Positions 4,054 to 50,613 of a DNA stretch of 64,000 nucleotides are shown here, one piece after another. Numbering within the stretch: the first letter of the stretch is position 1; each line of letters begins with the position of its first letter. The position numbers were made by a program, and so were the translations under genes. Location of the stretch: contig JACDNU010000004.1 of the NCBI GenBank assembly GCA_017656505.1, positions 30,024-94,023 on the forward strand, given 5' to 3'. A model generated the notes under the pieces. That model was given only the letters and a program-made list of their open reading frames with translations, did no database searches and was not told where the DNA came from. Source of the stretch: Archaeoglobus sp. (GTDB lineage: Archaea > Halobacteriota > Archaeoglobi > Archaeoglobales > Archaeoglobaceae).

Positions 4054-4449
4054 ATGGAAAAGAAGAAGGGCAAATGGGGTATTGCGAACATCTTTTCATC
4101 CTACAACAATACGATCATCACTATAACCGATATCACGGGGAGCGAGACGATTGTAAGGATCAGCGGCGGAATGATCGTGAAAGCAAGCAGAGACGAGGGA
4201 AATCCCTATACAGCCATGCAGGCGGCGATAAGGGCAGCGGAGAAGGCGATGGAAAAGGGGATTGAAGGCGTGCACATAAAAGTTAGAGCCCCCGGAGGAA
4301 ACAAGCACACGAACCCCGGTCCGGGAGCGCAGGCTGCGATAAGGGCTCTAGCAAGAGCCGGACTGAAGATCGGTAGGATCGAGGATGTAACTCCAATCCC
4401 GCACGACGGCACTAGGGCTCCCGGCGGGAAGAGGGGAAGAAGAATCTGA
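4054..4449 (+). CDS. rps11: 30S ribosomal protein S11 (uS11)
   Basis: The 131-residue protein begins [20 protein letters not shown] and has the conserved S11 segments [38 protein letters not shown], the glycine loop [20 protein letters not shown], and the C-terminal [20 protein letters not shown] that contacts rRNA at the platform. It helps form the mRNA exit region of the small subunit. It is third in the operon, with AGAGGTG upstream of the ATG. Confidence 0.97.
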
Positions 4450-4494
4450 AATTCGAAATCATCCTCTTAATCTTTTAATTCTGGAGAGGTGAAA

Positions 4495-5283
4495 ATGGAA
4501 CCCAAAATTGAGATTCTGGAAGAGGGAGATCTGAAGCTCAAATTCATTTTGGAGTCTTCGACTGCTTTTGCTAACTCTTTGAGGAGGGCTATGAAAAGCA
4601 TGGTGCCTACGATGGCCGTCGATTACATAGACTTCTACATGAACACCTCCTATCTCTACGACGAAATTCTAGCCCATAGAATAGGGCTAATTCCCATAAA
4701 AACGGATCTCGAGAAGTTCAACATGCCCGACAAATGCGTTTGCGGTGGAGAAGGATGCCCAAATTGCCAAGTTTCCTTCAGACTCAACATCGAAGGGCCG
4801 AAGCTTGTCTATTCCGGAGACTTCGTTTCTGACGATCCGGAGACAGTTCCGGTTTACGACAACATCCCGGTTGTTGAACTCGATGAGGGACAGCAGCTAA
4901 TGCTGGAAGCGGTGGCAAGACTTGGAACGGGAAAGGAGCATGTGAAGTGGCAGCCTGTTTCAGCCTGTACGTATAGGATCATTCCGGAAATAGTCATCGG
5001 TGAAAGCTGTAACGCGTGCAAAGATTGCGTTGAAGTATGCCCGAGAAACGTTTTCGAGGTTGAAGATGAAAAGATCGTGGTGAAAAGGCCCGAGGAATGC
5101 TCGATGTGCATGGAATGTGTTGAGGTTTGCGAACAGTCTGCTATCGACGTGAATGAAACGAACAGATTCCTCTTCAATGTGGAAGGAACGGGAGCTTTAC
5201 CAGTTAAGAGGGTTCTCGTCGAGGCCTTAAAGGCTCTTAAAAGCAAAGCAGAAGAGCTCACCTCGATAGTTGAGATTGAGTAA
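4495..5283 (+). CDS. rpoD: DNA-directed RNA polymerase subunit D with two Fe-S motifs
   Basis: Subunit D is the archaeal counterpart of bacterial alpha-NTD and eukaryotic Rpb3/AC40; it pairs with subunit L to start polymerase assembly. The N-terminal half has the dimerisation signature TAFANSLRRAMKSMVPTMAV and the HRIGLIPIKTD segment. A ferredoxin-like insert carries two four-cysteine motifs, CNACKDCVEVCP and CSMCMECVEVC, so both cluster sites look intact. An additional CVCGGEGCPNC motif lies near residues 75-90. The ATG at 4495 is preferred over the track GTG at 4489 because the ribosome site GGAGAGGTG overlaps that GTG. It is last in the ribosomal operon and is followed by a T-rich spacer. 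Confidence 0.95.
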   Translation: MEPKIEILEEGDLKLKFILESSTAFANSLRRAMKSMVPTMAVDYIDFYMNTSYLYDEILAHRIGLIPIKTDLEKFNMPDKCVCGGEGCPNCQVSFRLNIEGPKLVYSGDFVSDDPETVPVYDNIPVVELDEGQQLMLEAVARLGTGKEHVKWQPVSACTYRIIPEIVIGESCNACKDCVEVCPRNVFEVEDEKIVVKRPEECSMCMECVEVCEQSAIDVNETNRFLFNVEGTGALPVKRVLVEALKALKSKAEELTSIVEIE

Positions 5284-5334
5284 CGATTGAATGGGTTTTT
5301 AAATTTTAATGCTTTTAATAGATTTTATTTAGAT

Positions 5335-7179
5335 TTATTCAGATAACCCTCTTCTACTCACATAGAGGTAAGAGTAAAGTCCGCCTAACACTATCAGTCC
5401 CATCCCAAGCCATACGAAGTTTGCAAGCCTGTTGATGTGCACTTCTATTCCAACTTTCTTTAAATCGCTTGAAATCCCATTAATTGAGACGTACAAATCA
5501 TGGAGTGGGAAGCTCATGATCTCAACCGAGGAGACAACCCTGTCCTGTCTGATAATCTTGTACTCTCTCATTTCTGGCTTTAGCGTTCCTATAAGCTTCC
5601 CATTCTCGTAAATCTGGATTTCTGCAAAGATGGAGAATTTTTCTCCATCCTCCCTTGCGTTAAGTTTCACAAACTTTAATTCGTATCCATCTATGGTTGC
5701 AGTTTCTCCAGGACTCAGAGCGAATTGCTGGGTGTTGGAGAGACTCCAAACCCCTATCGAACCGATAAAAAGGAACATTACACCTATATGCACAACGTAA
5801 GCACCGTATCTTCTTAAAAACCTCATCTTTCCTGTGTAAAAGGCTACCAGGTAGTTCAGCAAGGAGAAAGCAAAAAGCCCAGCGGCTAGGGAGGCTAGAA
5901 TGCTTCTCGAAAGGGCGAATGATGAAAGCGAAGCGATCAGAAATATGATGGATGGGATTAGGAATTTCTCTCTCAGTTCTCCATCCCAGCCCCACTTCAG
6001 CCTTATGCAGAGTCCGAAAAGGGCGAACAGGATTATTTCAACTGGGAACATTATCGACTCGTAGTATTTCCTCCCCAGTTCAAATCCGAAAGCGGGTATC
6101 AGAGTGCCAATAAGAACGCCAAGAAAGAGCATCAGAATAACGAGTAAATAAACAAGGATGGATGTTTCTCTGTTGATGGAAATCCTAAGCTCATCTCCTC
6201 CCCTAAAACCGTTCCTTTTGACATATATGGATACAACCGCAGAGATAACTATGACCAAGAGAAAAATAACTCCTTCAGGCCCCTCGCCGAAAGCATGAAC
6301 CGATGAAACTATTCCACTTCGGGTAACAAATGCTGCGAATACCACCAGAATGAAGGTTAACACCAGCAGATAGTAATTTGCGGAAATTATCCACGAACCC
6401 TTAGCCCTTTTCTGGAGGTAAAAGGTGTGAAAAACGAGGGTCGAGGTAAGCCACGGAAGCATCGAAGAATTCTCAACCGGGTCCCATCCCCAAAAACCTC
6501 CCCAACCCAGTGTCCGATAAGCCCACCATCCGCCAACGAAGATTCCTAGGCCGAGCAAGATCCATGATGGTAGCAAATACTTCATCGCCCTCTCTTCCCA
6601 GTCCTTTCCTAGGGCATATCCTGAAACGGCCATTGCAAACGGGATGAGGAGTCCGGCATAGGCAGCGAAAACGATTGGTGGATGGATTACCATCTCCAGA
6701 GTTCTTAACAGTGGATTTAATCCCACTCCCTCTGGCTGGGCTGGAATTCTCGTGAAGGGATTTGAGGTTGTAAGCAAAAGGATGTTAATCAGCAGAAGAA
6801 ACAGGCCAGAAATTGCGAGGGTATAAGCGGTCAGACTGTCCTTTTTATCGGAAAGAACGAAAAGATTTACCGTGGCTATGAAAAGAGCCCAAAGCAGAAG
6901 CGAGCCTTCTTTTCCAGCCCAGAATGCACTGACTGTAAGGAGCAAGGAAAGCTTGGAATCGGAGTTATAGAAAACGTATTCGTAAGAAAAATCTTTTGAG
7001 AGGAAGTGAGAGAGGAGCAAAAGACTTGAGAAGAGAATGGCAAGAAAGTACAGAAAAACTGCTTTTTCACCGTTTTGCAGCAAATCAGCCGATCTTTTTT
7101 TTACTCCAGCGTAGAATGCGTAAACGGAGTACGCTACTAATATCAAAGAAGCCAGAAGCAGAATTTCACCCACGTCCAT
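5335..7179 (-). CDS. ccmF: Cytochrome c haem lyase subunit CcmF
   Basis: CcmF is the multi-spanning membrane protein that takes haem from CcmE and attaches it to CxxCH motifs of apocytochromes. The 614-residue product has many membrane helices. It contains the WWD haem-handling signature WGGFWGWDPVENSSMLPWL near residue 220 and the FWAGKEGSLLLW motif near residue 85. Histidines lie in IHPPIVFAAYAG, STLVFHTFY and YVVHIGVMFLF, where the family has its haem-ligating residues. A soluble extracytoplasmic domain (about residues 480-580) precedes the last helix. It follows ccmE by nine bases. At 614 residues it is close to, or slightly shorter than, usual bacterial CcmF. Confidence 0.93.
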   Translation of the reverse strand: MDVGEILLLASLILVAYSVYAFYAGVKKRSADLLQNGEKAVFLYFLAILFSSLLLLSHFLSKDFSYEYVFYNSDSKLSLLLTVSAFWAGKEGSLLLWALFIATVNLFVLSDKKDSLTAYTLAISGLFLLLINILLLTTSNPFTRIPAQPEGVGLNPLLRTLEMVIHPPIVFAAYAGLLIPFAMAVSGYALGKDWEERAMKYLLPSWILLGLGIFVGGWWAYRTLGWGGFWGWDPVENSSMLPWLTSTLVFHTFYLQKRAKGSWIISANYYLLVLTFILVVFAAFVTRSGIVSSVHAFGEGPEGVIFLLVIVISAVVSIYVKRNGFRGGDELRISINRETSILVYLLVILMLFLGVLIGTLIPAFGFELGRKYYESIMFPVEIILFALFGLCIRLKWGWDGELREKFLIPSIIFLIASLSSFALSRSILASLAAGLFAFSLLNYLVAFYTGKMRFLRRYGAYVVHIGVMFLFIGSIGVWSLSNTQQFALSPGETATIDGYELKFVKLNAREDGEKFSIFAEIQIYENGKLIGTLKPEMREYKIIRQDRVVSSVEIMSFPLHDLYVSINGISSDLKKVGIEVHINRLANFVWLGMGLIVLGGLYSYLYVSRRGLSE

Positions 7180-7607: not shown

Positions 7608-8714
7608 TCAGAATATGAGATCTTCGATTGCTGCCTTTTCCACGGCAAGCTTTATCTCCCTAGCTATCCTCCTCCCCATGTACATGTTCTCCCCCCACAG
7701 AATGTACGAATAGGCTGAACTTGGAATTCCGCTGTTAGTCCCGGCTACAATTCTGGCGGAGATCTCAAAAACCGTCATTTCAGCATTCTCGTCAAATACA
7801 GCCTCGAGGCAGAAAGGCCCCACCATTCCCGGATAAGCTATCTCCTTTGAAACTTCCACAACATTCTTAGCAGCCTCTAAAGCCTGGGAAAGCAGGCTCT
7901 CCCTCAAAACTATTGGAAAGTTTCCCACAACCGTGTAAGTTGGGGAAGGATCTATTTTCAGCTGGATTGGAGCGGGAACTTTGCCCAAGCTGTCGACGTC
8001 GGCTTCATACCTCCTGTCGATTGCGATCAGCTCAACCCTCTCGAGGATTGGAGAGTAAAAGAAGGAGAAGTATACATTCGCCCCAAGGATGTACTCTTGA
8101 ATGAAAGCTTTTTCAAAGTCTTCCCTTCTGGCAAGCCCCTTCTGAACCATCTCTTCGGACTTCTTGAGAAAATCCTCGTAATCTGTAGCGAGAAAGTAAC
8201 CTTTCCCTCCCTTAGCCCCCGGAAACTTCACTATGGATAAGCGATCAATTTCCTCGGGTTTTTCGATTATCCTTGGCGTTTTCAGGCCAGCCTTTTTCAA
8301 CCAAGCCTGCTGCATCTCTCTAACAGTCTCCCAGTACATTAACTCCCTGTTCCCGAAGATGGGGATTCTCAGCCTCTCGAGGTTTCCAATGTAGGCGTTA
8401 AACGAGCCATGGGGGATAAGGATTCCGTTGAGCTCGATTATCATATCTTGAAAGTTATCCTCAAGTAAATCCGGGAAATCTTGGATTTCGATGAGCTCGT
8501 CTGCAACGGGAAAGGACTCGTAGATTATCCTTTCCTTCTCTCTGCAAAGGCAGACAGTCTTGAATCCTTCTTCCTTTGCCCCTTTTAGGATGTTCAACGC
8601 GGAATGGCTTCCCAAGGTTACGATGCTTATCTTGCTGTGATCGTAATCGTTCAGAACCTCAAGAATCTTCTCCCTGCTCCTCTTTATTACCTCAGCTCTT
8701 TCCTCCAGATTCAT
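7608..8714 (-). CDS. purP: Formate-dependent AICAR ligase PurP
   Basis: PurP makes FAICAR from AICAR, formate and ATP, the archaeal replacement for the folate-dependent PurH transformylase. The 368-residue product has the PurP N-terminus ([20 protein letters not shown], then [13 protein letters not shown]), an ATP-grasp core ([20 protein letters not shown], then [19 protein letters not shown]) and a metal/phosphate-binding end ([20 protein letters not shown], then [11 protein letters not shown]). The length is usual for the family. It is on the same strand as larB, carB, carA, purC and purE, a nucleotide-synthesis block, with short gaps that allow co-transcription. Confidence 0.93.
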
Positions 8715-8752
8715 AAGATCTCCTCAATAATTTGATTTTATTTCAACTTATT

Positions 8753-9556
8753 TTATTTGTTATTTTGTTTACTGCCTTTTCCGACCCTTTTTCTAATCCT
8801 CCGGCTGATGAGTGAGGCGAAGACCGCAGCTCCGAAACCATTATCCACATTTACAACAGCAACACCCGAAGAGCAGCTCTGGAGCATTGAGAAGAGCGTA
8901 GTCAAACCGTTCAGGCTCACACCGTAGCCCACGGAAGTGGGAACTGCTATCACAGGCAGATCAACGATTCCAGCAACGACAGAGGGCAAAGCTCCCTCCA
9001 TCCCGGCAACCACTATTATGGAATCAACCTCGCTACCCAAAATCTCCTTTATGGGGTTGATCAGCCTGTGCAGTCCGGCAACGCCAACATCGTAGTACTT
9101 CAAAACCTCCAATCCAAGAAATTCGGCTGTAGTTGCAGCCTCTTCAGCTACCCTAATGTCTGAGGTTCCCGCAGTCAGAATCGCCACCCTGCCGAATTTT
9201 TCTTTCCTTTTCCCAACTATAATCGTTCCGGATTTCTCGTTCACAAAGGCATCTGGAAAAGCCTTCAGAATCGCCTCAATCTGCTCATCCGACGCTTTCG
9301 TAACGAGGACTCCTTCCAACACCTTCAAACTTTCCTTTAAAATTTTAACTATCTCTTCCGGAGTTTTGCCTTCCGCATAGATCGCTTCTGGCTTTCCTGC
9401 TCTAGCCTCCCTTAAATGATCAAAATTTGCGAAGTCCTCAACCTGTTTTAGAAATATCTTGACGAGCTCCTCTCTGCTCTCCTCATCAAGCTCCCCGATC
9501 TCTTCCAGAATTTTTCTTATTTCATTGACGTTTTTTTCTTTGGATTTCCCTTTCAT
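8753..9556 (-). CDS. larB: LarB-family carboxylase (PurE-like domain)
   Basis: LarB carboxylates and hydrolyses nicotinic acid adenine dinucleotide in synthesis of the nickel-pincer cofactor. The 267-residue product has a helical N-terminal region with the conserved FDHLREARAGKPEAIYAEGK segment, followed by a PurE-like domain with VAILTAGTSDIRVAEEAATT, YDVGVAGLHRLI, VVAGMEGALPSVVAGIVDLP and AVPTSVGYGVSLNGLTTL. These match LarB (COG1691), not PurE, which is a separate gene here. Partners larC and larE are not in the window, so the pathway is not confirmed. The C-terminal VVNVDNGFGAAVFASLI is also typical. Confidence 0.88.
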   Translation of the reverse strand: MKGKSKEKNVNEIRKILEEIGELDEESREELVKIFLKQVEDFANFDHLREARAGKPEAIYAEGKTPEEIVKILKESLKVLEGVLVTKASDEQIEAILKAFPDAFVNEKSGTIIVGKRKEKFGRVAILTAGTSDIRVAEEAATTAEFLGLEVLKYYDVGVAGLHRLINPIKEILGSEVDSIIVVAGMEGALPSVVAGIVDLPVIAVPTSVGYGVSLNGLTTLFSMLQSCSSGVAVVNVDNGFGAAVFASLISRRIRKRVGKGSKQNNK

Positions 9557-46560: not shown

Positions 46561-47001
46561 ATCGAAAAGAAGAGGGTTCTCTTCGTCTGCACGAACAACT
46601 CAGCAAGATCTCAAATGGCAGAAGGCATTCTGAAAGATCTTTTTGGGGATAGATACGATGCCTACAGTGCTGGAACCTCTCCAACTTCTGTCAACCCCTA
46701 TGCAATAAAGGTGATGGCCGAGCTTGGAATAGACATTTCAAAAAACCGTGCAAAAAGCATTGAAGAGTTTAGGGGAATGGACTTTGATTATGTTGTTACA
46801 GTGTGTAACGATGCAAAGGAAAGTTGCCCCTTCTTTCTTGGAAAAATACATATCCACATGGGTTTTGAGGATCCAGCCTTTGCCAAGGGAACGGAAGAGG
46901 AAATCCTTAAAACCTTCAGGAAAGTGAGAGATGAGATTAGAAAATGGATAATCAAATACTTCGGTGATTTATCTCAAAATTCGGGGCGAGAAAATGGATA
47001 G
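46561..47001 (+). CDS. arsC: Thioredoxin-type arsenate reductase with no standard start codon
   Basis: The enzyme reduces arsenate to arsenite. The frame before the track ATG (46615) is open and encodes the essential P-loop VLFVCTNNSARSQ, so the gene must begin upstream. No ATG, GTG or TTG is available there. The ribosome site GGGGTGAT is followed by ATC at 46561. Counting that ATC as residue 1 puts the cysteines at 10, 82 and 89 (CTNNSAR, VCNDAKESC), exactly the numbering of the staphylococcal thioredoxin-coupled ArsC, and the FEDPAF Asp also fits. A TATA-like TTATAAATA lies upstream. It overlaps the next gene by eight bases. Confidence 0.85.
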   Translation: MEKKRVLFVCTNNSARSQMAEGILKDLFGDRYDAYSAGTSPTSVNPYAIKVMAELGIDISKNRAKSIEEFRGMDFDYVVTVCNDAKESCPFFLGKIHIHMGFEDPAFAKGTEEEILKTFRKVRDEIRKWIIKYFGDLSQNSGRENG

Positions 47002-47809
47002 GGCGAAAAGGCGCTATAGATTTCCCAAAGGAATGAGACCATCGACCCTTGAAGAAAGAAAGATGTTCTATTCGAGGGAATTTGATTTGAATGCGGTAAG
47101 GAAATGGCTTGAACACAGGCAGATCAGCAAAACAGCATTCGCGGTTATAGTTGGCAGGCATTCAGATATATATCTGCCTGAATATGCCGAAATCAAAAAC
47201 AAGGCAGTGATAATCGATGATCATAAAGATTTGAACGATGTTTTGGATTACATTTTCCAATACCTGCCTGAGGGCGTTTACTATGACAGGAACGTTTACA
47301 GGGAATTAGGCGCCTGCGAGAAATGCGGAAAAAGCTACAAGGATTGCTGGGATTGTGATAACTTCTTAGGACAAGAACTCGCCTTCGATGTGGACCCAGA
47401 GAATGTTCACTGCCCCTACCACGGATCAATAAAGGATAGGATGGAGAGAGGGGAAGGATTGAGCTTCTGCATGCTTGAATTTAAAAAGGTCAGGAGGCTT
47501 ACATACGAACTTTTTCTCCAGCTTGAGCATGAATTCAGGAATTTAAGGATAGTTTTCTCCGGAAGGGGATTCCACATCCATGTTCTGGACAGAAAAGCTA
47601 TGAAGCTGACAAGAGAGGAAAGAAACGAGCTTGCTAAGAGATATTCACGCTTTGCGATAGATCCTTGGGTTACGAATGGCGAAATGAGGCTGATAAGGCT
47701 ACCTTACTCTTTAAACGGACTTGTTTCGAGGATTTGTACTCCCATCGAACCAGAAGAACTTCTTTCTTTCGATCCAAGAGAAAAGGCTATTCCTTCTTTT
47801 CTGCTTTAG
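46994..47809 (+). CDS. PriS-like archaeo-eukaryotic primase (AEP) family protein
   Basis: Read from the ATG at 46994, which overlaps the arsC end, the product has 271 residues. It has PriS landmarks: RPSTLEERKMFYSREFD, the catalytic pair ELAFDVDPENV (DxD), IVFSGRGFHIHVLD (S-x-R-G-x-H-x-H) and FAIDPWVTNGEMRLIRLPYS with LNGLVSRI, holding the third Asp. A cysteine cluster CEKCGKSYKDCWDC plus HCPYH replaces the usual zinc site. It is shorter than common archaeal PriS (about 330-360). It may be the genome's PriS or a divergent paralogue; priL is not in the window, and the replicative role is unproven. Confidence 0.75.
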   Translation: MDRAKRRYRFPKGMRPSTLEERKMFYSREFDLNAVRKWLEHRQISKTAFAVIVGRHSDIYLPEYAEIKNKAVIIDDHKDLNDVLDYIFQYLPEGVYYDRNVYRELGACEKCGKSYKDCWDCDNFLGQELAFDVDPENVHCPYHGSIKDRMERGEGLSFCMLEFKKVRRLTYELFLQLEHEFRNLRIVFSGRGFHIHVLDRKAMKLTREERNELAKRYSRFAIDPWVTNGEMRLIRLPYSLNGLVSRICTPIEPEELLSFDPREKAIPSFLL

Positions 47810-47894
47810 TCTCCTCACCGTAGTAGTAGGCTTTCTTTTTCGCCTTTACTTCCTCACCCTCGTAGTAGTACTCCTTTTTCTTTTTCTCTTCCAT
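47787..47894 (-). CDS. 35-residue Tyr/Lys/Glu repeat microprotein (not in the ORF track)
   Basis: A minus-strand frame reads MEEKKKKEYYYEGEEVKAKK, then KAYYYGEETKAEKKE and stop. It consists of two copies of a unit KxYYYxGEExKAxKK. The two copies differ at several third codon positions without changing the residue (GAA/GAG, AAG/AAA, GCG/GCA), which suggests that the protein, not the DNA, is under selection. A TATA-like TTTTAAATAAAA sits about 28 bases before the ATG, so it would be leaderless. It overlaps the last 23 bases of the PriS-like gene on the opposite strand. Function unknown. Confidence 0.6.
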   Translation of the reverse strand: MEEKKKKEYYYEGEEVKAKKKAYYYGEETKAEKKE

Positions 47895-47912: not shown

Positions 47913-47926
47913 TTTTATTTAAAATT
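47913..47926 (-). promoter_or_regulatory. TATA region of the repeat microprotein
   Basis: On the minus strand ATTTTAAATAAAAA lies 20-33 bases before the ATG at 47894, the spacing expected of a leaderless archaeal transcript. Confidence 0.5.
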
Positions 47927-48012: not shown

Positions 48013-48966
48013 TTAACCCATGGGCTTTGCAAAAGTAAGGCTGTAGAGGCTGCCGTTGTACTTAACGCAGCTCCTGACGTGACTGCCTAATTCAGTAAAG
48101 ATCCTGTCCATGTCTTTTACGCTCATTTTAACTCTTACCTCACCTATTTCAACGCTGATCTTTCCTTCTTTTCTGGTTTCGTTGGCACCTCCAGCCTCAA
48201 GCCTCTTAAACTCCTTTTCAGCTTCTTTCAATCCTTTTTCGAGTAAGGGAAATTCTTCTACTTTCTCTGCTGGAACGCATTCGTTCGGATTCAGATAAAA
48301 CTCATATCTGAGTCTCGCTTTAAGGAAAATTTGGAATGTAGCATTATCGAATCTAAAAATTTCTCCTTTTGCGTTTATCAGCTCTTCTACGGCTTTGATT
48401 TCTTCTAGGGTTGCAGCTGCGGTATAAGCATCGTTTTCTCTGTAGCCTCTCGTCCGCTCCACCTCATTGTCCAGCTGCCAGTAATAGATTGAAAGATTAA
48501 GCGGCCTATATTTTTTAAGTTCTGTTTCATTTAATTTCGGTATCCGTTGAGGTGTTTGTTGAGGTGTTTGCTGAAGCATTTGCTGAGGTATAGAGCTTTT
48601 GAAACTCTCATTAATCTCCTTCACCCCAACAAAGGCGGAAGAGCTTATCTTGTAGTAACTACCATTTATCTCCACGTATCTACCTTTTCTCAGCAATGCT
48701 GAAATTTTCTTGTAGTCTTCAATTGTAATATCCATTGAGAAATATTTCTCTCCGGAGTTAATAGCTTCCATAATTTCTGGATAGGTTATATGGGTTATAG
48801 CTTTCTCAAGCTCAGAATTTTCTTTTGGTATGCTGAGATGTTTGATGTTAATGTATCCTTCGATAGGCTGAGAGAGATAGATAAGGGCAAATGTTCCAAG
48901 GTAAATTATAGCTACCGCAGTTATTAACGCTATTAACGCTATTACCCACCTCCGCATTTTCCCCAT
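48013..48966 (-). CDS. Membrane-anchored hypothetical protein next to the cytochrome
   Basis: About 317 residues. One N-terminal helix (WVIALIALITAVAIIYLGTF) would anchor a large extracytoplasmic domain. A Gln/Pro/Thr-rich linker (PQQMLQQTPQQTPQRIP) sits near residue 135 and a helical, charged C-terminal part (EKGLKEAEKEFKRLEAGG) follows. Two cysteines (NECVPAE and RSCVKYN) could form a disulphide. I do not recognise the family. It starts directly at the cytochrome stop codon, so the two are co-transcribed and the product may be a partner of the cytochrome. The exact start (GTG 48975, ATG 48966 or ATG 48957) is unsure. Confidence 0.65.
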   Translation of the reverse strand: MGKMRRWVIALIALITAVAIIYLGTFALIYLSQPIEGYINIKHLSIPKENSELEKAITHITYPEIMEAINSGEKYFSMDITIEDYKKISALLRKGRYVEINGSYYKISSSAFVGVKEINESFKSSIPQQMLQQTPQQTPQRIPKLNETELKKYRPLNLSIYYWQLDNEVERTRGYRENDAYTAAATLEEIKAVEELINAKGEIFRFDNATFQIFLKARLRYEFYLNPNECVPAEKVEEFPLLEKGLKEAEKEFKRLEAGGANETRKEGKISVEIGEVRVKMSVKDMDRIFTELGSHVRSCVKYNGSLYSLTFAKPMG

Positions 48967-48975
48967 TTGCACCAC

Positions 48976-50613
48976 TTATTCCAGAATTTTCTCAGAAACA
49001 GCAACAACTGTTGTTTTCTCCATTTTGCCGTAATTCCCAAGAAATTCGTTTACGAGAGCTGTAGGAGTTTTTGAGAGATCTGAAAGAAAGCGATGGGAGA
49101 CGGGCTGATAGAAAACCTCAACTAGAACTTTCCTAGCCCTTCCATCATCTGCTATGGTATAGGTTACAGTATCACTCCCACCAATGAAATTCTCGTCTCC
49201 ATCCACACCCCTAGGAACCGTGTCAGAATGCATTTTGTTTGGATCAGCCCCCTCTGGTAGAATTCTGTTATCTTTGATGTATTCTGCTGCTCTAAGGAGC
49301 GTTGAAGTTACCATTCCACCGGAATCAACCATGACTGACTCGTAGATCTGAACCTCGTTTTCGCTGGTTATTACATCGTGATGTTTTTCAAACGGCTCGT
49401 CTTCCCCGATAATCCTTCCGTTGGCAGTATAATTCCCCGATTCGAAGATGGTCTTTCCTTCTCCATCCACGACTTTCAGATAAATCCAGGCTCTTCTGGA
49501 GGGGAAGCCAGTCGGGAACTTATGGCCTGCGAAATTCAAAATCCTAACTTTGACGACGAGTTTATCACCTTCTCTCTCCGTCTCAAGGCTAACTGAAACG
49601 GCTGACTTTAGTTTATCTAAAGTGGCTGAAGCATTCATTCCCATAAGTTTAAGAATTTGAACGTTTCCTCCTGCAAATTCATGGATGTAGAATGGAGACC
49701 TTGCCGGAAGAAACTTGGGGTTTGCAGGGATTTTTGAGATTCTCACACCTTTGGTTTGAGGCATGTGGCAGCTCTGGCAAGACACCTTTTTCGCATAGCT
49801 GCTCGACAACCACTCGAGATATGGTGTTTGTTCGGGGAAATGCCCTAGAAACTCCCCCTTTTCATCAAAATAGGGTGTGTAGAGGGTGTGACAGATCGCG
49901 CAGAGTTCGGCTTTCTCAATCTGTTCGCCTTTTTTGGGCAGGTATCCGACGACACCTCTCATTAACTCTGCCATTTCAGGCTCAAATGGGCCGTAGATAA
50001 GTCTATCCGGCTTAAAAGTTGAAGAATCGATCGAATAGTTTCCTGAAAAGCTATCTTCATTCCCCAATCTTTTGTTTTCAATCTGATGGCAGAGCGTGCA
50101 TGACACTCCTTCAACCGCAAGCTCATGGTATTGATTATCTTTTTCGAGTAAGGTAAAGAGTGCACTCTCTTCTCCGTCGACCTTTGCCTGAAATGCCGCC
50201 ATGGGTGTATGGCACTTCGCACATTCCCTCTCTATGATCTTGGAATCTCCAGAGAATTTTTCAATTTCCGAAGTAAGCTTTGCCAGGAAATAAGGATCTT
50301 TCGCTGCGTTTGCAAGCATCGTATTTCTCCAGCTTGAGTGAATTGAAACGTCATTGCCAAATGAGTCTTTCAACCCATTGTGGCATTTCGAGCAGGGTTT
50401 TGATGGAGAGAACATCTCCGGAATTTCTTCTGAGCGTTGAACCTCTGAAATCTTTTGCGTCTCCTTTGGGGTTTCAGGCTGAGGTTGAGGTTGAGGCTGA
50501 GCACATCCGATTAGAAAAGTGGTGAGTAAAAAGCAAACAGAAAAGGCTAAAACAGTTAAAAGAGTTGAGGCAGTTAAAATAGAGGAAAATCTCTTCTCAG
50601 ACATAATAACCAT
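48976..50613 (-). CDS. Pentahaem c-type cytochrome lipoprotein
   Basis: The 545-residue product has five CxxCH haem-binding motifs: CSKCH, CAKCH, CTLCH, CAICH and CQSCH, all in the first 320 residues. An N-terminal hydrophobic helix ends in TTFLIGCAQPQPQPQP, a lipobox-like Cys followed by a PQ repeat, suggesting attachment to the outside of the membrane. The C-terminal 250 residues hold no further haem motif and look beta-rich, with the AGHKFPTGFPSRRAWIYLKV segment common to c554/NrfB-like multihaem proteins. It would need the Ccm system encoded at 5.3-7.5 kb. A role in extracellular or respiratory electron transfer is inferred. Confidence 0.88.
   Translation of the reverse strand: MVIMSEKRFSSILTASTLLTVLAFSVCFLLTTFLIGCAQPQPQPQPETPKETQKISEVQRSEEIPEMFSPSKPCSKCHNGLKDSFGNDVSIHSSWRNTMLANAAKDPYFLAKLTSEIEKFSGDSKIIERECAKCHTPMAAFQAKVDGEESALFTLLEKDNQYHELAVEGVSCTLCHQIENKRLGNEDSFSGNYSIDSSTFKPDRLIYGPFEPEMAELMRGVVGYLPKKGEQIEKAELCAICHTLYTPYFDEKGEFLGHFPEQTPYLEWLSSSYAKKVSCQSCHMPQTKGVRISKIPANPKFLPARSPFYIHEFAGGNVQILKLMGMNASATLDKLKSAVSVSLETEREGDKLVVKVRILNFAGHKFPTGFPSRRAWIYLKVVDGEGKTIFESGNYTANGRIIGEDEPFEKHHDVITSENEVQIYESVMVDSGGMVTSTLLRAAEYIKDNRILPEGADPNKMHSDTVPRGVDGDENFIGGSDTVTYTIADDGRARKVLVEVFYQPVSHRFLSDLSKTPTALVNEFLGNYGKMEKTTVVAVSEKILE

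Follow-up and report, generated by a model that had tools for sequence, protein, structure and literature searches.

A Lys/Tyr-rich repeat microprotein conserved in archaea is suggested to work with a second PriS-like primase

The replicative primase makes non-catalytic contacts through PriL and, in Sulfolobus, through its third subunit PriX, a lineage-specific non-catalytic protein associated with an archaeo-eukaryotic primase (AEP) (PMC5700102). The microprotein reported here is encoded in a 64,000-nucleotide stretch of an Archaeoglobus sp. genome (the window) and resembles PriX in being a lineage-specific non-catalytic protein tied to an archaeal AEP. PriX, however, is folded and PriL-like, is much larger and serves the replicative PriSL, whereas the microprotein is a 35-aa low-complexity repeat protein that lies beside a second AEP and has neither detectable similarity to PDB sequences nor a solved relative. 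Small basic archaeal chromatin proteins of the Sso7d/Sac7d type are likewise small and Lys-rich, and their KYKGEEKEV bears what we take to be a loose resemblance to YYEGEEVKA of the microprotein. In contrast to these proteins, which are represented among the PDB sequences that gave no match, the microprotein has about half the length and a nearly neutral K/E balance. Its partner gene shares the AEP motifs and catalytic Asp triad of archaeal/eukaryotic PriS (TIGR00335, PF01896), but it encodes only about 270 aa, does not reach the PriS cut-off and occurs in a genome that also has a full PriS. Like the NHEJ polymerases (LigD PolDom and archaeal homologues) it is a stand-alone AEP beside a replicative primase, but its presence does not track Ku.

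An earlier note on this DNA had claimed a 35-codon minus-strand ORF, which we found exactly at 47787-47894 (−), where ATG start, TAG stop and a conserved frame define MEEKKKKEYYYEGEEVKAKKKAYYYGEETKAEKKE, a short sequence composed largely of K, E and Y. The two-repeat make-up was equally evident: tandem copies occupy codons 7-20 (K7-K20; 47835-47876, −), reading KEYYYEGEEVKAKK, and codons 21-34 (K21-K34; 47793-47834, −), reading KAYYYGEETKAEKK, the second copy having no residue between YYY and GEE. The statement that the copies differ mainly at synonymous positions is barely right, because 4 of the 13 comparable codons differ synonymously and 3 non-synonymously, with 6 identical. A TATA-type box, TTTAAA (47918-47923, −; a YTTAWA match), is centred at −26.5 from the ATG, which fits the note's TATA element placed for a leaderless mRNA; a box centred some 26.5 bases 5′ of the ATG has the expected spacing for such an archaeal transcript. 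The convergent 3′ ends of the microprotein and of the PriS-like gene on the opposite strand (stop at 47809) overlap by 23 bases (47787-47809), again as described. AlphaFold2, given an alignment of two sequences, returned a lone helix at pLDDT 72, a model of little informative value.

By sequence comparison the microprotein belongs to none of the family libraries searched: there was no match above threshold in Pfam (best E 0.33) or PHROGs (best 0.35) and none in NCBIfam or PADLOC. The PADLOC result led us to reject a defence-system reading, and a structured RNA was rejected because the locus had no Rfam match. Literature searches for the microprotein and for the PriS-like AEP paralogue found nothing on either.

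A whole-genome search with profile A1 detected microprotein relatives in 14 of the 55 Archaeoglobaceae genomes, with E values down to 5e-15. Three further genomes, which also carry the AEP (G072, G073 and G078), have diverged forms in the same place (for example MAEKKKAKEEKKKEQYGKGEEKAKKK) that were found by inspection and missed by the profile; because such forms escape it, the counts are lower bounds on presence, and several genomes are incomplete. Most members of f4, a second family of the window's phylum, also carry the microprotein. Weak matches in G057, G050, G007, G033 and G575 were dismissed as lying inside long unrelated frames. We define the KxYYxGEExKA family, into which the window microprotein falls, as short stand-alone ORFs of one or two K-x-YY-x-GEE-x-K-[AG]-x-K units; the consensus unit is KKK-x-YY(Y)-x-G-[EK]-E-V-K-[AG]-x-K, and members have one or two copies. 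The tyrosine run ranges from Y through YY and YYY to YYYY, with a single Tyr in three members, so that the three consecutive tyrosines which had seemed striking are not a universal trait.

When columns overlapping the PriS-like gene were excluded, pN/pS across 13 Archaeoglobaceae sequences was 0.20 (0.191 with those columns kept). Codon position 3 differed in 53.5% of comparisons versus 16.3% at position 1 and 13.1% at position 2, making third positions 3-4 times more variable, and copies varied in length by whole codons. The antisense frame, which is open in all sequences and would extend the PriS-like protein, gave a pN/pS of 1.76, and the only other low-ratio frame contains 3-5 stops in every sequence. 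Of 12 Archaeoglobaceae members that are leaderless in type, 10 have a YTTAWA box centred at −22 to −31 (shuffling gave a mean of 0.58, and no shuffle out of 5000 reached 10), and all 7 members tested of a short-leader type have a promoter box at −32 to −37 (about −35). Given the low pN/pS, the excess of position-3 changes, the whole-codon length changes and the recurrent box, the microprotein is, as judged from its sequences, under purifying selection at the protein level and is preceded by a promoter motif of its own; it is presumably expressed. The frame is thus kept in relatives, which was one of the checks that the earlier note had set, and it is near certain from these patterns that the ORF is a real gene, as claimed, and not a product of chance. 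Part of the C-terminal identity is imposed by the overlap with the AEP gene, although the end is similar in the genus g5 copies, which lie apart from the AEP.

The partner gene (46994-47809, +; about 271 aa) matches PF01896 with an E value of 1.1e-11. The earlier description as PriS-like needs a correction, because the gene is a second AEP and not the replicative PriS: it scores 70.1 bits against TIGR00335, below the cut-off of 143.5, and the replicative PriS of this genome lies elsewhere, on another contig (G000:C10, 222.3 bits). When alignment A2 was aligned to 1v33, the catalytic Asp triad was found in the shorter paralogue; we take the triad to be D95, D97 and D280 in P. horikoshii numbering, assuming a 20-residue tag in 1v33. 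The DxD motif is kept, with NxD (first Asp to Asn) in G019 and an invariant second Asp; SGRGFHIHV is kept as well, and Asp222 of A2 is invariant and aligns with D280 of P. horikoshii PriS. Loss of the third catalytic Asp, suspected from VTNGEMRL, was ruled out because the 1v33 alignment places this residue at the invariant D of IDEWVT. The same alignment shows that ~90 residues between motifs II and III are missing. With its catalytic motifs kept and this segment absent, the gene encodes a compact, probably active second AEP. A link to NHEJ was rejected, since AEP presence is uncorrelated with Ku (present in 12 of 19 AEP-positive versus 19 of 36 AEP-negative genomes). The AlphaFold2 model of the AEP was poor (pLDDT 53), and the AEP tree had weak support, with one outgroup row being a wrong ORF, apparently DnaG.

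Around the pair, a low-molecular-weight phosphatase/arsenate-reductase-type gene (PF01451; 46615-47001, +) lies just upstream of the PriS-like gene and is not kept beside it in most relatives. On the minus strand the window also holds a multihaem cytochrome c-like protein (48976-50613) and, after it, a 320-aa protein (48013-48975) whose N-terminus is hydrophobic and for which Pfam gave no significant match. In G017, a replicative-type PriS and the PriS-like AEP sit within 5.5 kb of each other (L094:2739-3821 and 8172-9062), and no microprotein was detected in that genome.

The PriS-like AEP occurs in 19 of the 55 Archaeoglobaceae genomes. All 14 microprotein genomes carry it and none of the 36 AEP-less genomes carries the microprotein (Fisher 2.7e-9). 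Among 394 genomes of the phylum, 18 have both genes, 6 the AEP only, 2 the microprotein only and 368 neither, so that 18 of 20 microprotein genomes have the AEP; the Fisher value of 4e-24 for this set merely describes the pattern, because genomes are not independent. An AEP without a detectable microprotein is seen in G017, G029 (76% complete) and G106 (61% complete), and a microprotein without an AEP in G094 and G100 (77% and 70% complete). Presence is patchy within genera, with both genes held by the same genomes. The two are usually convergent, while the genes that flank them mostly vary from one genome to another.

Much of this co-occurrence comes from physical linkage, so that a single gain or loss event can affect both genes. 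In genus g5, though, the microprotein lies far from the AEP, with a DUF58-like gene on one side and a small membrane-protein gene on the other (neighbours named by eye), and the AEP is still present. Because g5 keeps both genes unlinked, the association survives loss of adjacency, and we regard a link between microprotein and AEP as likely. The earlier note had mentioned the overlap with the PriS-like gene only in passing; co-occurrence and adjacency across lineages instead make this pairing the most informative feature of the locus. That the two genes almost always co-occur and are usually adjacent suggests that a conserved microprotein and an uncharacterised second primase-like enzyme work together.

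We extended the search to another phylum with profile A3, which was built without sequences of the tested group. The 390 genomes scanned were those of the L017 group, which bears the label Euryarchaeota and, to judge by its genomes, does not belong to the window's phylum. The PriS-like AEP is present in only 5 of these 390. The search gave one significant match, MCQTCAKHNPKKKEEYYKGKEMKAEKKK in G401 (E 2.9e-5), which has a convergent PriS-like AEP 0.7 kb away. When the 606 small ORFs around AEP loci of this phylum were scored, two matched the profile significantly. One is the G401 ORF (2.6e-6); the other, MAPRKKATKKAGKSSKKKSYNRGKEVRACKER of G645 (0.0019), runs at its end into the 3′ end of the AEP gene, an arrangement also seen in the window. 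Similarly placed look-alikes, MVDKKKKKKETKKKYYYYSKKEKKVQ in G463 and a G394 frame ending KKKYCYYSKGEKKASTIKTTR, were not statistically significant. As background, a Lys-rich small convergent ORF was found at the end of 1 of 336 other genes. This single case, the Lys/Glu-rich MAKKKEKKAEEKKEEKKEEKK on L088, is convergent with gene 4345-5496 of G073 and lies near a PriS-like locus. G645 has two tandem Lys-rich micro-ORFs convergent with the AEP (L149:6707-6935), each with a Shine-Dalgarno-like GGAGG; the outer one, MSCGKCGAAKKTKAKKKAKKKR, has a CxxC as does the G401 relative.

Our preferred reading, to which we give roughly even credence, is that the Lys/Tyr-rich microprotein is a real gene whose product serves the stand-alone PriS-like AEP next to it in trans, as a small accessory or regulatory protein. 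To the observed selection, promoter motif, co-occurrence and frequent convergent adjacency we add, as the step that we infer, trans-acting binding of the AEP and/or nucleic acid. The basic-aromatic repeats would bind the AEP, its DNA or primer-template, or both, and would thereby affect AEP activity. The roles put forward in the earlier note, namely nucleic-acid binding, stacking on ligands and self-association, are likewise conjectural. Recurring Lys-Tyr patches could provide a hold on single-stranded DNA or primer-template, with greater avidity when there are two unit copies, yet some members have only one unit or one Tyr. The PriS-like AEP has no PriL- or PriX-type neighbour, and the microprotein might supply the contact that these larger subunits give the replicative primase. 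Somewhat more tentatively, archaea of at least two phyla may carry an undescribed two-part primase-polymerase system, in which a compact second PriS-like AEP has a Lys/Tyr-rich repeat microprotein of ~20-41 residues as its dedicated subunit or switch, with the two convergent genes passed on and exchanged together. Such a microprotein is much shorter than the proteins that are usually annotated, and its tie to the second primase-like enzyme provides a handle on the role of that enzyme. A relative is present in a complete genome (G035:C1:2059101-2059205, +), which makes the proposal directly testable. If the two interact, few accessory proteins known from DNA-synthesising enzymes would be smaller, and the microprotein would be an example of function predicted from a gene partner.

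Alternatively, the microprotein could be a general small nucleic-acid-binding (or RNA- or membrane-binding) protein that is kept with the AEP only through a shared stress or repair process and never contacts it. The unlinked copies in g5 and the extra copies of family f4, near TspO-like and other genes or as a tail on a SnoaL-like protein, fit such a protein, but genomes that have the microprotein almost always have the AEP, and the convergent adjacency of the two recurs in two phyla; we consider this account unlikely, while giving it appreciable weight. A selfish or toxin-antitoxin-like module, with a harmful AEP (a nucleotidyltransferase) neutralised by the microprotein, would explain why the genes are present and absent jointly, patchily within genera and among differing outer neighbours. 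Convergent, separately promoted genes are unlike a toxin-antitoxin operon, however, G017 has the AEP without a detectable microprotein and PADLOC gave no match, which leaves this account with a rather small chance.

Two further explanations deny the peptide itself a role. The conserved element could be an antisense RNA or the transcription end of the PriS-like gene, with an incidental ORF, given that the 3′ ends of the two genes overlap and that poly-T terminators read in antisense yield lysine codons. This origin is disfavoured because selection is specific to the microprotein frame; moreover, g5 and the second f4 locus retain the protein at a distance from the AEP, and there is no Rfam match, so that we judge it very improbable. 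A chance low-complexity ORF might be supposed from the short sequence dominated by K, E and Y, but the sequence is conserved in other genera (to E 5e-15) and in more than one phylum, and its Y, G, E and K residues are position-specific, which makes this explanation close to negligible.

Returning to the accessory role that we prefer, the extra microprotein copies that family f4 has away from the AEP, including the tail on a SnoaL-like protein, indicate that the role of the microprotein may be wider than partnership with this enzyme. In L108, L109, L110 and L137 (family f4, genus g17) one unit, for example MAKKAAYYYKGKEVKGQK, forms an in-frame C-terminal tail of the SnoaL-like protein, whereas L107 has a stop codon between unit and protein. 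Such a unit may be a portable tail. Also in g17, a second microprotein copy adjoins a TspO-like gene (L102, L103, L104 and L105), and the number of units at this locus varies, with one in L105 versus two in L103.
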